32,483 nucleotides of DNA from Henriciella sp. (GTDB lineage: Bacteria; Pseudomonadota; Alphaproteobacteria; Caulobacterales; Hyphomonadaceae), in contig JAQWGO010000055.1 in assembly GCA_029238175.1 (NCBI GenBank), forward strand, positions 1-32,483, given 5' to 3'. Of this stretch, positions 1,968 through 13,981 are shown piece after piece. Both the position numbers and the translations under genes were made by a program. The notes beneath the pieces are model-generated. The model did not search any database. It saw only the letters and a program-made list of their open reading frames with translations, and was not told where the DNA came from. Every line of letters starts with the position of its first letter. The first letter of the stretch is position 1.

Positions 1968-2867
1968 ATGACTGACCTAGAGCGCATGAAACCCGGAACG
2001 GATCTTGTAACCAAAGCTGGTTCCAGCTTGATGCCCGCTTTTGAACTGAAGCGTGGTGCGCCAATTGCTGCTCCGGTGGTTTTTGCATCCCCCCACAGCG
2101 GCTGCTTCTATCCTGAAGACTTTCAGAACGACCTTAGAGTACCGCTAATCGACCTGCGCCGTACAGAAGATGCGTTTATTGATGAACTCTTCGGCGGCGT
2201 CATTGATCAAGGCGCAATCCAACTCTCCGCCAAGTACGGACGCTCATATGTGGATTTGAACCGCGACGCCCGTGAACTTGATCCAGAAATGTTTGTTGAT
2301 GGAACGCCGCTCACCGTCGGCATGAAAGGTGCGCGCGTCAAAGCTGGCTTGGGGTGCTTGCCGCGCGTTGCCGCGAGCGGTCAAAATATAAGCGCGTCGA
2401 AAATCACGAAGGCAGAAGGTGTTTTTAGGCTGAGCCATGTCCATGAGGCCTATCATGGCGCGCTGTCTGGCGAATTGGAGCAGTTAAAGAATGACTGGTC
2501 TGATGTCGTCTTAATTGATTGCCACTCGATGCCATCGAAACAGCCCGGACGTACAGGGCTACCAGATATCGTGCTTGGGGATCGTTTTGGCTCGAGTTGT
2601 AGTCCGAGGCTGACCTCAATCGTTGAACGCGCGTTTAGACGTAGCGGGTTAACAGTGGGCCGAAATGCACCTTATGCAGGCGGCTACACCACACGCCGGT
2701 ACGGACGACCAAGGCGCGGGGTTCATGTCCTGCAGATTGAGATCAATCGCGGACTGTACCTTGACGAAGCAAATGTTGAGAAAACCCGCGGCTTTATCTC
2801 TCTTCAAAATCAGATCGCCGAAATCACCACCGAGATCCTAAATTACGCTCTTTACGAAAATACGTAA
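1968..2867 (+). CDS. N-formylglutamate amidohydrolase family protein
   Basis: The protein belongs to the HutG/FGase family, zinc-dependent hydrolases that release formate and glutamate from N-formylglutamate at the end of histidine degradation. Evidence is the SPHSG metal-site motif (FASPHSGCFYPEDF), RRTEDAFIDELF, YGRSYVDLNRDARELDPEMF, the LIDCHSMPS motif with its metal-binding Asp and His, and the late RPRRGVHVLQIEINRGLYLDE. Length (299) is normal. No other hut genes are nearby, so the true substrate is uncertain. The annotated ATG has no clear ribosome site; an in-frame ATG at 1986 or the one just before PAFELKRG could be the real start. The stop codon lies inside the A-run that is the T-tract of the minus-strand terminator at 2866-2896. 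Confidence 0.85.
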   Translation: MTDLERMKPGTDLVTKAGSSLMPAFELKRGAPIAAPVVFASPHSGCFYPEDFQNDLRVPLIDLRRTEDAFIDELFGGVIDQGAIQLSAKYGRSYVDLNRDARELDPEMFVDGTPLTVGMKGARVKAGLGCLPRVAASGQNISASKITKAEGVFRLSHVHEAYHGALSGELEQLKNDWSDVVLIDCHSMPSKQPGRTGLPDIVLGDRFGSSCSPRLTSIVERAFRRSGLTVGRNAPYAGGYTTRRYGRPRRGVHVLQIEINRGLYLDEANVEKTRGFISLQNQIAEITTEILNYALYENT

Positions 2868-2896
2868 AAAAAAGCCGCGCTGATAAAAGCGCGGCT
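2866..2896 (-). terminator. Intrinsic terminator, minus-strand orientation
   Basis: The arms AGCCGCGC (2873-2880) and GCGCGGCT (2889-2896) form a perfect 8-bp stem around an 8-base loop. On the minus strand eight T follow directly (plus-strand A at 2866-2873). On the plus strand the hairpin is followed by AAAAAGG, so it is not a canonical terminator for the amidohydrolase gene. There is no minus-strand protein gene ending here, which points to a small RNA. Confidence 0.88.
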
Positions 2897-2942
2897 AAAA
2901 AGGTAAGGGAGGAAACGCCAGAAGGCGCCGCACCGCAGTGCT
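2866..2942 (-). ncRNA. Candidate trans-acting small RNA with anti-Shine-Dalgarno tract
   Basis: No protein frame explains this interval, but on the minus strand it has the layout of a regulatory small RNA of about 77 nt. A first hairpin has arms GCAC and GTGC (2930-2941). A second has arms CGCC and GGCG with loop TTCT (2916-2927). An unpaired pyrimidine stretch UUUCCUCCCUUACC follows (about 2902-2915). The end is an 8-bp GC-rich terminator stem and eight U. A promoter is seen at 2950-2977. CCUCCC can pair with ribosome-binding sites, as in the CCUCC-type alphaproteobacterial small RNAs. I do not recognise a named family. Transcription start and targets are inferred. Confidence 0.7.
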
Positions 2943-2949
2943 AAGACGT

Positions 2950-2977
2950 TATTTATTGTGCAGCGCACAAATTACAA
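2950..2977 (-). promoter_or_regulatory. Sigma-70-like promoter with palindromic operator in the spacer
   Basis: On the minus strand TTGTAA (2977-2972) and TAAATA (2955-2950) are separated by 16 bp. The spacer contains a perfect inverted repeat, TTGTGC-AGC-GCACAA (2956-2970), so a bound regulator would block RNA polymerase. The expected start is near 2942. The core resembles the STGC-N3-GCA half-sites described for PhaR, the PHB-responsive repressor; that assignment is inference. Confidence 0.6.
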
Positions 2978-3120
2978 GTAAATTCGGTCGCAACAGCAGC
3001 ATATCATGTATGCAAATCCGTATACCATTTTAGAAAACCCATTCTCAATCCGCATAATTCGGGCGAAGTGTTAATTTCGGCACGCGTCTTGCTCTTACTA
3101 TTCCGACCATTCACAAATCG

Positions 3121-3157: not shown

Positions 3158-3556
3158 ATGACGGACGATACAGACCTACACGTTGGAAAGCGTTTACGCC
3201 GACGCCGCCGTTTACTCGGCATGACTCAGCAAGACTTGGCTGTCATGGTTGGTGTCCGCTTCCAACAAATTCAGAAGTATGAATGCGGTGCCAACCGCGT
3301 CACGTCTTCGCGCCTGTATGATCTTTCAAAAGCGCTGAACGTCTCTGTTCAATACTTTTTCGATGGTATTGAAACCGTAGAGATGACCGGGCTTGCTGCA
3401 AATGACGCTGAGCGCTTGGACGGCGATATCCTGAGCCAAAAAGAAACGCTTGAGCTGGTTCGCGCCTATTACCGTCTGGGCGAGCGTCCACGCCGCCGCC
3501 TGCTGGAGCTCGCCAAAGCCTTTGAAGCCGAAGCTTCTGAAAGCGGCGCTGCTTGA
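3158..3556 (+). CDS. XRE-family transcriptional regulator, PhrR/PraR-like
   Basis: A 132-residue DNA-binding protein. An N-terminal Cro/C1-type HTH spans about residues 8-66: HVGKRLRRRRRLLGMTQQDLA, then VGVRFQQIQKYECGANRVTSSRLYDLSKALNVSVQYFF. This pattern, especially FQQIQKYECGANRV and the YFF end, matches the PhrR/PraR group of rhizobia, which controls stress and surface or quorum-sensing genes. The C-terminal helix (ETLELVRAYYRLGERPRRRLLELAKAF) probably dimerises. The frame is open 30 codons further upstream, but the ATG at 3158 with GGGAGAG before it fits family starts. It is divergent from the small-RNA candidate, and its stop overlaps a possible TTG start of the next gene, suggesting a two-gene unit. 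Confidence 0.85.
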   Translation: MTDDTDLHVGKRLRRRRRLLGMTQQDLAVMVGVRFQQIQKYECGANRVTSSRLYDLSKALNVSVQYFFDGIETVEMTGLAANDAERLDGDILSQKETLELVRAYYRLGERPRRRLLELAKAFEAEASESGAA

Positions 3557-3588
3557 CGTCGCTGCCCTCGCGCGGCAAAGCGCAGGGC

Positions 3589-4392
3589 ATGACGACACAA
3601 CCCGATTTTGACGCCGTTTCTATTGCTTGCGCGCTGGCCGATGCCGCGCGCATAGCCATTATGCCCCATTTTAGGGCAGTTACTGATATTGAGAATAAGC
3701 TAAGTGGCGGTGATTTCGATCCGGTGACAGAAGCTGACAAAGCTGCCGAGCGGGCGATGCGGGCCGTTCTCGCTGATTTACGCCCCGATGATGCCATTCA
3801 CGGCGAAGAGTATGGCCTGAAAGATGGCACAAGCGGATGGACCTGGGTGTTAGACCCAATTGATGGAACACGCGCCTTTGTTGCTGGCTTACCCGTCTGG
3901 ACGACCCTAATCGGCTTGGTTGACGATAAGGGCGATGCAATTGTTGGGATCATCGATCAGCCTATACTCGATGAGCGCTACATCGGATATCCGGGCGGCG
4001 CTGAGCTCGAGACGGCATCTGGCCGACATCCAATCTCTGTGTCCAATTGCGACGACTTGCGTGAAGCCGTTATCGCAACAACTGATCCGTTCATCATGAC
4101 AATGCCAGAGCAAGGCGCGTGGAGCCATTTACGCGCCACCGCGCGCATCGTTCGATATGGTTTAGACGCTTATGCCTATGCACGGATTGCCGGGGGCACG
4201 ATTGACCTAGTCGCGGAGTCTGGCCTTGCGCCCTATGACGCCGCCGCTTTGATCCCAATTGTGCGCGGCGCGGGCGGTCTTGCCTGTGACTGGCGCGGAA
4301 ATCCAGCAAAGCCGGGCGGGCAGCTTGTTTGCGCCGCAAGTCAGGGCATTCTTGATCAGGCCCTAATCTCACTGCGCCGCTCTGCTGAATAG
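3589..4392 (+). CDS. hisN: Inositol-monophosphatase-family phosphatase, HisN-type histidinol-phosphatase
   Basis: A Mg-dependent phosphatase of 267 residues. The metal motifs of the family are present: DPVTEADKAAE, the HGEE glutamate pair, WVLDPIDGTRAF, and the C-terminal APYDAAALIPIVRGAGG with its metal-binding Asp. The GTRAFVAGLPVWTTLIGL segment is typical of HisN, which removes phosphate from L-histidinol phosphate in histidine biosynthesis, rather than of SuhB. I cannot exclude another sugar or nucleotide phosphate substrate. The frame can start at TTG 3553 overlapping the previous stop, but ATG 3589 fits the family N-terminus better. It follows the XRE gene by 32 bp. Confidence 0.82.
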   Translation: MTTQPDFDAVSIACALADAARIAIMPHFRAVTDIENKLSGGDFDPVTEADKAAERAMRAVLADLRPDDAIHGEEYGLKDGTSGWTWVLDPIDGTRAFVAGLPVWTTLIGLVDDKGDAIVGIIDQPILDERYIGYPGGAELETASGRHPISVSNCDDLREAVIATTDPFIMTMPEQGAWSHLRATARIVRYGLDAYAYARIAGGTIDLVAESGLAPYDAAALIPIVRGAGGLACDWRGNPAKPGGQLVCAASQGILDQALISLRRSAE

Positions 4393-12391: not shown

Positions 12392-12700
12392 ATGACCAGC
12401 CTCACGCAAGACCAACAAGACAAGTTAGACGCAGCCGCATTTCGCCGCCTACTCTCGCACTTGGATGCCAACAAAGACGTTCAAAATATCGACTTGATGA
12501 TTCTGGCTGATTTTTGCCGCAACTGCCTTAGCGATTGGTATATGGAAGCAGCACACGCCGAAGGGCTGGAGATGTCCAAAGCCGACGCCAGAACCCGCGT
12601 CTACGGCATGCCGCAAGCCGAATGGAAAGAAAAATTCCAATTGCCAGCGTCGCCGGAACAGATCGCTGCGTTTGAAGCACGCACCAAAGGTGGTTGCTAA
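12392..12700 (+). CDS. DUF1244 family protein
   Basis: A 102-residue cytoplasmic protein of the DUF1244 family, common in alphaproteobacteria and of unknown function. The core ILADFCRNCLSDWYMEAAHAEG, with its two cysteines, and the YGMPQAEWKEKFQ segment are recognisable. Its ATG follows the PCuAC stop codon directly, so the two are almost certainly co-translated. Its stop overlaps the phaZ stop by 4 bp on the other strand. The C-terminus ends GGC. Confidence 0.85.
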   Translation: MTSLTQDQQDKLDAAAFRRLLSHLDANKDVQNIDLMILADFCRNCLSDWYMEAAHAEGLEMSKADARTRVYGMPQAEWKEKFQLPASPEQIAAFEARTKGGC

Positions 12701-13926
12701 GCCCGGGTTACTTGGGCTTGGAATGCATTGACGCGCGGGACGATCTCTTCAACGAAACGACGGCCATTGAACACGCCGTAATGCCCAACGCCCGGCTGGA
12801 TATAGTCCGTCTGCATGGACTCTGGGATGTTAATGCAGAGGTCATGCGCCGCCTGTGTCTGACCAATACCAGAGATATCGTCTTTCTCACCTTCGACTGT
12901 CATCAAAGCAACGCTTTCAATCGCGGCTGGATCAACAACGCGGTCGCCGCGATAGCGGAAGATGCCACGCGCAATATGATGCTCTCGGAAAACACGCGTA
13001 ATCGTTTGAAGATAGAATTCTTCCGGCAAGTCGAGCACAGAAAGATACTCATCATAGAACGCACGATGCTTTTCGGCGCTGTCATCATCGCCCTCGACCA
13101 AGTGATCAAAGAAGCGCGCCTGCGCATCCACATGCTTGTCCCAATTCATATGCATGAATGAGGTAAGCTGGACGAACCCGGGATAAACCCGGCGCATCAT
13201 GCCCGGCCAAGGCGCGGGTACAGTGTAAATCATCTTCTCTTTGAACCATTCAAAAGAACGTTCTTCGGCAAGCAGATTTGGCACCGTTGGCGACTTACGC
13301 GCATCGATTGGGCTGCCCATAAAAGTCATCGTGGCTGGCAGTGCCGGGTCGCGGTCTTCCGCCATCATCGAAATAGCTGCCAGCACTGGCGGTCCAGGCT
13401 GACAAACGGCCAAAACATGTGCATCAGGGCCAATATGCTGCAATGCCATGCGCACATGATCGACATAGTCATCCAGATCAAAGCGCCCGACCCAAACAGG
13501 TGCCATCTTCGCATCGGTCCAGTCAGTAATGTAGACTTCATGCGTTGGTAAAAAGGCTTCAACCGTACCGCGCAGCAATGTTGCGAAGTGTCCTGAGAGC
13601 GGTGCACAAATGAGCATACGCGGGCGGCCCGTTGGCGCGCCTTCAGTCTGAAAATGGACAAGTTTGCACCATGGCGATGACCAAGTCGCAATCGGCGTCA
13701 CATTGTGTGTTTTACCATGAATTTCAGTGGTTGGAATTTGCCACTCTGGCTTACCATAATAACGAGTTGCGCGCTCAAATACACTTGTCGCGGCCAGTGT
13801 AGATCGACCAAACTCGGTATCACGTAGAGGGTTGAGCGGATTATCGAGAAACGCCTTTGTCCCCTTCGCCATTAGACGCATTGGGGCCATCGCGGCGCGA
13901 TTCATCTCGACAAATGTGTATAGCAT
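12697..13926 (-). CDS. phaZ: Intracellular polyhydroxybutyrate depolymerase
   Basis: A 409-residue PhaZ1-type depolymerase that breaks down stored PHB granules in the cytoplasm to feed carbon metabolism. The nucleophile region is VCQPGPPVLAAI with Cys175, matching the Cys nucleophile of the PhaZ1 group. Other conserved stretches are LICAPLSGHFATLLRGTVEAFL, VYITDWTDAKMAPVWVGRFDLDDYVDHV, and the late PGVGHYGVFNGRRF, which carries the catalytic His. The N-terminus MLYTFVEMNRAAMAPMR fits known family starts. Its promoter at about 13954-13981 carries a TGCAGYGCA operator like that of the small-RNA candidate. It is divergent from the solo LuxR-type gene. Confidence 0.92.
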   Translation of the reverse strand: MLYTFVEMNRAAMAPMRLMAKGTKAFLDNPLNPLRDTEFGRSTLAATSVFERATRYYGKPEWQIPTTEIHGKTHNVTPIATWSSPWCKLVHFQTEGAPTGRPRMLICAPLSGHFATLLRGTVEAFLPTHEVYITDWTDAKMAPVWVGRFDLDDYVDHVRMALQHIGPDAHVLAVCQPGPPVLAAISMMAEDRDPALPATMTFMGSPIDARKSPTVPNLLAEERSFEWFKEKMIYTVPAPWPGMMRRVYPGFVQLTSFMHMNWDKHVDAQARFFDHLVEGDDDSAEKHRAFYDEYLSVLDLPEEFYLQTITRVFREHHIARGIFRYRGDRVVDPAAIESVALMTVEGEKDDISGIGQTQAAHDLCINIPESMQTDYIQPGVGHYGVFNGRRFVEEIVPRVNAFQAQVTRA

Positions 13927-13941
13927 GCAGCATTCCCGCTC

Positions 13942-13981
13942 TTGTTGCAGTGCAGCATATGGAAAACTAGACCGTTTGCAA
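13942..13981 (-). promoter_or_regulatory. Predicted phaZ promoter with PhaR-like operator
   Basis: On the minus strand TTGCAA (13981-13976) and TATGCT (13959-13954) are 16 bp apart. A site reading CTGC-ACT-GCAA on that strand (core TGCAGTGCA on plus, 13946-13954) overlaps the -10 end and the expected start site, 20-30 bp before the phaZ ATG. This resembles the CTGC-N3-GCAG sites described for PhaR. Promoter boxes are moderate matches. Confidence 0.5.

Follow-up and report, generated by a model that had tools for sequence, protein, structure and literature searches.

The minus strand just downstream of a Henriciella N-formylglutamate amidohydrolase (FGase) gene carries a gene for a small RNA of the alpha-r8 family (Rfam RF00519). 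In our judgment this is very probably the chromosomal orthologue of MmgR of Sinorhizobium meliloti and SisA of Caulobacter crescentus, acting as an Hfq-dependent, trans-acting repressor that is switched by PhaR and has TonB-receptor messages as its best-supported targets. We assign it to SisA/MmgR because it matches RF00519, contains the published decamer of the family and adjoins the FGase gene, both in the window (the whole 32,483-nt stretch of DNA analyzed) and at 73 of 80 loci compared. The alpha-r8 family, its core, its synteny, its anti-Shine-Dalgarno action and the PhaR control of MmgR are already published; what our analysis adds is to place this described regulator in the Hyphomonadaceae group of Hyphomonas and Henriciella, and no work on this RNA in these genera was found in the open-licence literature. 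The original MmgR papers are reportedly those of Lagares (2016, 2017) and Ceizel Borella (2018), and Lagares 2016 is said to cover the distribution of the MmgR family.

Table 1. Features of the small RNA gene and related loci, in window positions
Feature	Position	Strand	Basis
Small RNA gene, MmgR/SisA (alpha-r8, RF00519), ~77 nt	2866..2942	-	RF00519 match, fold
5' hairpin 1, 4 pairs	2930..2941	-	predicted fold and alignment
Hairpin 2, counted with 5 pairs (single-sequence fold: 6)	2915..2928	-	predicted fold and alignment
Seed UUUCCUCCCU, anti-Shine-Dalgarno 10-mer of the alpha-r8 family	2906..2915	-	invariant columns, published 10-mer
Unpaired tract UUUCCUCCCUUACC	2915-2902	-	sequence
Intrinsic terminator with T tract; stem of 9 pairs, loop of 6 nt	2866..2896	-	fold, covariation
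-35 box TTGTAA	2972..2977	-	sequence; TTG kept in relatives
-10 box TAAATA	2950..2955	-	sequence; TA kept in relatives
Palindrome AATTTGTGCGCTGCACAATAA resembling the PhaR/AniA operator; lies between the boxes and touches them	2953..2973	-	21/21 consensus match
Second PhaR-operator match, ~14 bp before the phaZ start	13940..13960	-	21/21 consensus
phaZ, PHB depolymerase	12697-13926	-	TIGR01849, 586.9 bits
FGase gene, convergent neighbor	1968..2867	+	PF05013, E 4.2e-66
Inositol monophosphatase-family gene (HisN-like), beyond a helix-turn-helix gene; context only	3553..4392	+	PF00459

A preliminary description of this DNA had proposed an independent small RNA gene whose anti-Shine-Dalgarno tract is exposed, and conservation and terminator covariation agree with that reading. 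The promoter boxes that it named are all present on the minus strand (TTGTAA at 2977-2972, a 16-nt spacer and TAAATA at 2955-2950), as is its first hairpin at 2941-2930. Its second hairpin shifts slightly, to 2928-2915 in place of 2927-2916, and the terminator, described as a perfect 8-bp stem with eight U, keeps the eight T (2873-2866) but has a stem of nine pairs, with the first T of the run paired in the hairpin at 2896-2873. For the 77-nt RNA the predicted fold reaches -32.2 kcal/mol (z = -4.08), and none of 200 shuffled sequences did equally well; in this fold, the first U of the seed UUUCCUCCCU is paired, at the base of hairpin 2. Within the window, the minus strand has a single copy of the decamer TTTCCTCCCT and the plus strand has none. 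Transcription would begin at 2940-2942, as judged from the -10 box and from S. meliloti mmgR, where the PhaR site is listed 13 nt from the start (PMC12542648, Table 3); the same distance applied here gives a start at 2940.

Searched against the whole window, RF00519 (suhB, alias mmgR) matched 2935-2858 of the minus strand at 44.3 bits (E 3.7e-6), only 3.3 bits above its gathering score of 41 bits. Among the 61 genomes compared (our own and 60 relatives), matches reached E <= 0.001 in 54 and exceeded the cut-off in 47, while the DNA of 2700-3050 used as query found matches in 38. Two of the 14 control genomes matched, Caulobacter vibrioides and, less expected, Thermus composti, with one of them over the cut-off. 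Nine further low-threshold Rfam matches of the window fell below their own gathering scores and were set aside. The features of the family found here comprise the score, the 10-mer behind a weak hairpin, the Rho-independent terminator, the FGase neighbor and, by sequence, the PhaR/AniA site.

Comparison with described RNAs supports this placement. SisA (CCNA_R0014) has the same 10-mer below a hairpin and a Rho-independent terminator, likewise lies downstream of an FGase gene and likewise has TonB receptors as likely targets (PMC12559287), although the 5' part of the Caulobacter copies is unlike that of the window RNA. According to the same source, the decamer is the core of the alpha-r8 family and is shared by SisA-D, and most species have one copy, adjoining the N-formylglutamate amidohydrolase gene. 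MmgR (SmelC689) resembles our RNA in its length of ~77 nt, its anti-Shine-Dalgarno core and the PhaR/AniA site in its promoter (PMC12542648); it is the sole copy in S. meliloti, whereas here a second copy, linked to amtB, is present. The preliminary description had also likened the RNA to the CCUCC-loop RNAs of alphaproteobacteria. SmelA075 and SmelA099 of the Rhizobiales, those that we checked, do share an anti-Shine-Dalgarno tract (theirs is CCUCCUCCC), but they form a separate group with three to four hairpins and the motif in the loops (PMC3927594), whereas the tract of the window RNA lies unpaired between hairpins and outside the loops of the predicted fold.

The alignment comprised 47 distinct sequences, the window and 46 related loci chosen for having the motif, and the ten invariant seed columns UUUCCUCCCU are to be read with that choice in mind, as the motif itself gathered the sequences. 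Standard pairs fill 98.8% of the 846 pair cells, as against 27-49% paired in control structures slid along the alignment. Seven of the 18 pairs change on both sides, and the covariation score was equalled by none of 500 shuffles; one of five covariation measures, that of further pair types, did not rise above them, with 307 of the 500 as high. Most of this change lies in the terminator, where five of nine pairs changed on both sides. In hairpin 1, 98.4% of cells are paired and two pairs changed on both sides, in one sequence each; hairpin 2 (98.3% paired) lacks covariation because it is almost invariant. The covariation support is therefore that of the terminator, with little from the scarcely varying 5' hairpins. 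Both kinds of evidence that the preliminary description had named as supportive, conservation in relatives and covariation of the terminator, were thus found.

Synteny extends the comparison beyond the alignment. An FGase protein search gave 80 loci, kept out of 250 and belonging chiefly to Hyphomonas, Henriciella, Caulobacter and Phenylobacterium, and at 73 of these 80 the decamer with a T-run lies downstream of the FGase gene on the opposite strand. The element is within 200 nt of the gene at 63 loci and within 1000 nt at 71. For two of the seven others, the contig stops within 300 nt of the FGase gene; the remaining five show no element.

Two readings would deny this gene its place in the family or its own transcript. 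The preliminary description had called the RNA undescribed, and we rejected a new family on the RF00519 match, which exceeds the curated cut-off; the 10-mer, the neighbor gene and the anti-Shine-Dalgarno action were moreover published in PMC12559287. The idea of an unrelated, undescribed family that acquired its anti-Shine-Dalgarno tract by convergence could find encouragement in how barely the window copy exceeds that cut-off, but RF00519 scores reach 67.4 and 65.8 bits in relatives of the same family and order, and the 10-mer, the hairpin-terminator layout, the FGase synteny and the promoter palindrome all fit the known family, which makes convergence very improbable. Equally hard to credit is that the element only ends transcription of the convergent FGase gene and encodes no RNA itself. 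It does stand directly behind the FGase stop codon; the T-run, however, follows the hairpin on the minus strand only, and conservation extends to the upstream hairpins, the seed and the promoter, further than a terminator would require.

The promoter itself points to the signal that this MmgR/SisA orthologue may answer. Its boxes are weak, with 7 of 12 consensus bases, and a simple sigma-70 scan did not return them; between them lies the palindrome TTGTGC-GCT-GCACAA. With the PhaR/AniA operator consensus WNWDDNYGCRNYGCRNHHWNW taken from PMC12542648, the window holds two full 21/21 matches, at 2953-2973 and 13940-13960, and no others. First-order random sequences of the window's length held 0.495 full operators on average, and a single match alone would therefore be unsurprising, but of the two, one is in the RNA promoter and one before phaZ. 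The operator core TGCNNNGCA is present at 44 of the 46 related loci (shuffled mean 0.48), the full 21-mer at only 17 (shuffled mean 0.01). At 27 loci of Caulobacter and others, the core was found in 16 and the full 21-mer in 5 (shuffled 0.39 and 0.00).

Comparison of related loci also supports the placement of the boxes. All 44 loci with the core have TTG at 9 (24 loci) or 10 (20 loci) bases before the GTGC of the palindrome, and in all 44 the -10 hexamer starts with TA while its other four bases vary; measured against TATAAT, 27 of these hexamers share two to three bases, 16 share four and one shares five. In S. meliloti, PhaR (AniA) binds such sites in the mmgR and phaZ promoters by gel shift (PMC12542648), and our genome has a phaR homologue (PF07879, E 3.8e-31). 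The gene is thus probably switched by PhaR (AniA), the PHB-sensing repressor, through a predicted operator inside its promoter. The conserved palindrome links the family to carbon storage beyond rhizobia, and the predicted target class and operator, found in another family of the order, make useful tests.

To consider which messages such an RNA may bind, we compared seed-complementary ribosome sites across the genome. The pattern GGGAGGA-N3-10-ATG has 40 sites versus 9 for the reversed pattern, and six of the 40 stand directly before, and in frame with (6/6), one of the 22 Plug-domain (TonB-receptor) hits; the other 16 hits lack the GGGAGGA 7-mer. This overlap has an expectation of 0.31 and a hypergeometric P of ~4e-7 at an assumed gene number of 2,800, and assuming 2,300 to 3,200 genes shifts P from 1e-6 to 2e-7. 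For the matched control AGGAGGA we counted 20 sites versus 5 for its reverse, and no Plug-domain gene follows any of them, a six-to-zero comparison that, drawn from 40 and 20 sites, is weak on its own. The pattern GGGAGGAA-N2-9-ATG has 18 sites versus 2 for its reverse. Behind these lie three TonB-receptor genes (L175, with a Plug domain by profile, and L176 and L177, the Plug hits on contigs C89 and C98), phaB (acetoacetyl-CoA reductase; TIGR01829, over cut-off) and, by names read from the sequences, a GPH-type sugar transporter and a TRAP-type binding protein. Some of the 18 sites are due to chance, since four open frames of fewer than 25 codons.

TonB-receptor genes are the best-supported candidate targets, in agreement with Caulobacter, where SisA uses the 10-mer to repress the message of a TonB receptor, as compensatory mutations showed (PMC12559287); by the account of that report, direct base-pairing targets of the alpha-r8 family were unknown before it appeared in 2025. 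A related question is whether a true family member might here serve mainly in MmgR-like tuning of PHB, through phasins and phaB, and not in SisA-like control of TonB receptors. PhaR operators in the RNA promoter and before phaZ speak for such a role, as does phaB itself, whose ribosome site GGGAGGAA complements the RNA seed and which is divergent from phaR (contig C111, 19145-19160 in L180 and 19357-19539 in L189). In S. meliloti, MmgR limits PHB and affects phasins, an effect that PMC7143759 and PMC8401924 word differently. The phaB site is not conserved, however. In a comparison of 30 of 61 matched loci, one of whose starts could not be located, GGGAGG stands at 13 of 29 phaB starts with our own included, that is, in 12 of 28 relatives, and it is absent from the four most similar (L192-L195). 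We dropped phaB from conserved target to candidate for this reason, and with seed sites enriched at TonB-receptor starts, a main role in PHB tuning seems unlikely.

Taking the RNA as a SisA-like repressor of TonB-receptor messages, its action can be sketched from steps established elsewhere, the pairing having been demonstrated in Caulobacter and the PhaR control in S. meliloti; here we infer both from the conserved parts. PHB build-up would draw PhaR off the promoter palindrome, allowing the RNA to be made. Hfq, of which the genome encodes a homologue (PF17209, E 8.1e-29), would then bring the single-stranded UUUCCUCCCU of the predicted 77-nt RNA to certain messages, at ribosome sites resembling GGGAGGAAA. 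With the 30S subunit kept off, translation would stop and the message would decay. Such an RNA would tie nutrient uptake at the surface to carbon storage.

Caulobacter also has a sponge RNA, CrfA, and a counterpart was sought here among the four other perfect AGGGAGGAAA sites of the genome, with a nearby T-run as the sole criterion; by that criterion none was recognized. Three of these sites overlap a long open frame on either strand, and one is intergenic. The latter, a perfect AGGGAGGAAA seed complement at C40:9973-9982 (L142, minus strand, position 490), lies behind an inverted repeat. It has no T-run within 250 nt and is neither a gene start nor a recognized sponge.

A second decamer RNA in the genome broadens the picture. 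It lies at C155:48549-48632 (L169:1750-1833), scores 29.4 bits, below the RF00519 cut-off, has the seed UUUCCUCCCA and stands behind the ammonium transporter gene amtB (PF00909), with ftsK behind the RNA. We examined 21 stretches, one holding our own copy and 20 where relatives have a secondary RF00519-like hit. In 16 of them, each from a different genome of this genus, the sibling is on the same strand as Amt, with its seed 32-76 nt past the end of the Amt match and ftsK behind it. Amt was identified by Pfam in three stretches and by tblastn in all 16. The siblings of relatives (L221-L228, L230-L236) show the seed UUUCCUCCCA or UUUCCUCCCG, a hairpin and a terminator; the seed columns TTTCCTCCC are invariant in the 16 copies, which were gathered by that motif, and two copies have fold z values of -3.7 and -6.8. 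The other five stretches have neither Amt nor FtsK, and two of these come from genomes with the sibling elsewhere. In other genera of the order, 16 further stretches around RF00519-like hits, from 12 genomes, gave no Amt match. Siblings below Rfam's cut-off thus exist behind amtB, and no paper on them was found among the open-licence literature.

In many sibling copies the hairpin begins very near the amtB stop codon, and any promoter of its own would then have to be within amtB, unless the RNA is released by cleavage of the amtB message. The amtB-linked RNA is possibly a 3'-UTR-derived, nitrogen-linked sibling. A tentative extension, which we think somewhat doubtful, is a circuit of the genus in which PHB, by drawing PhaR off the promoter, would release the FGase-linked copy, while the sibling, whose seed is nearly the same, would be cut from the 3' end of the amtB message; carbon storage and nitrogen hunger would then both repress one set of messages. 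If such a two-input circuit is true, the shared targets would be TonB-receptor and PHB messages.

A third RF00519-like hit, C59:9763-9833 (29.7 bits), was rejected, as it has no decamer and is a terminator-like hairpin directly behind an open frame. Elsewhere in the window, the HisN-like gene scores 272.1 bits with TIGR02067, just below the cut-off of 275.15, and a tRNA gene at 707-778 on the minus strand (RF00005, 70 bits) adjoins a choline-dehydrogenase-like gene at the left end.
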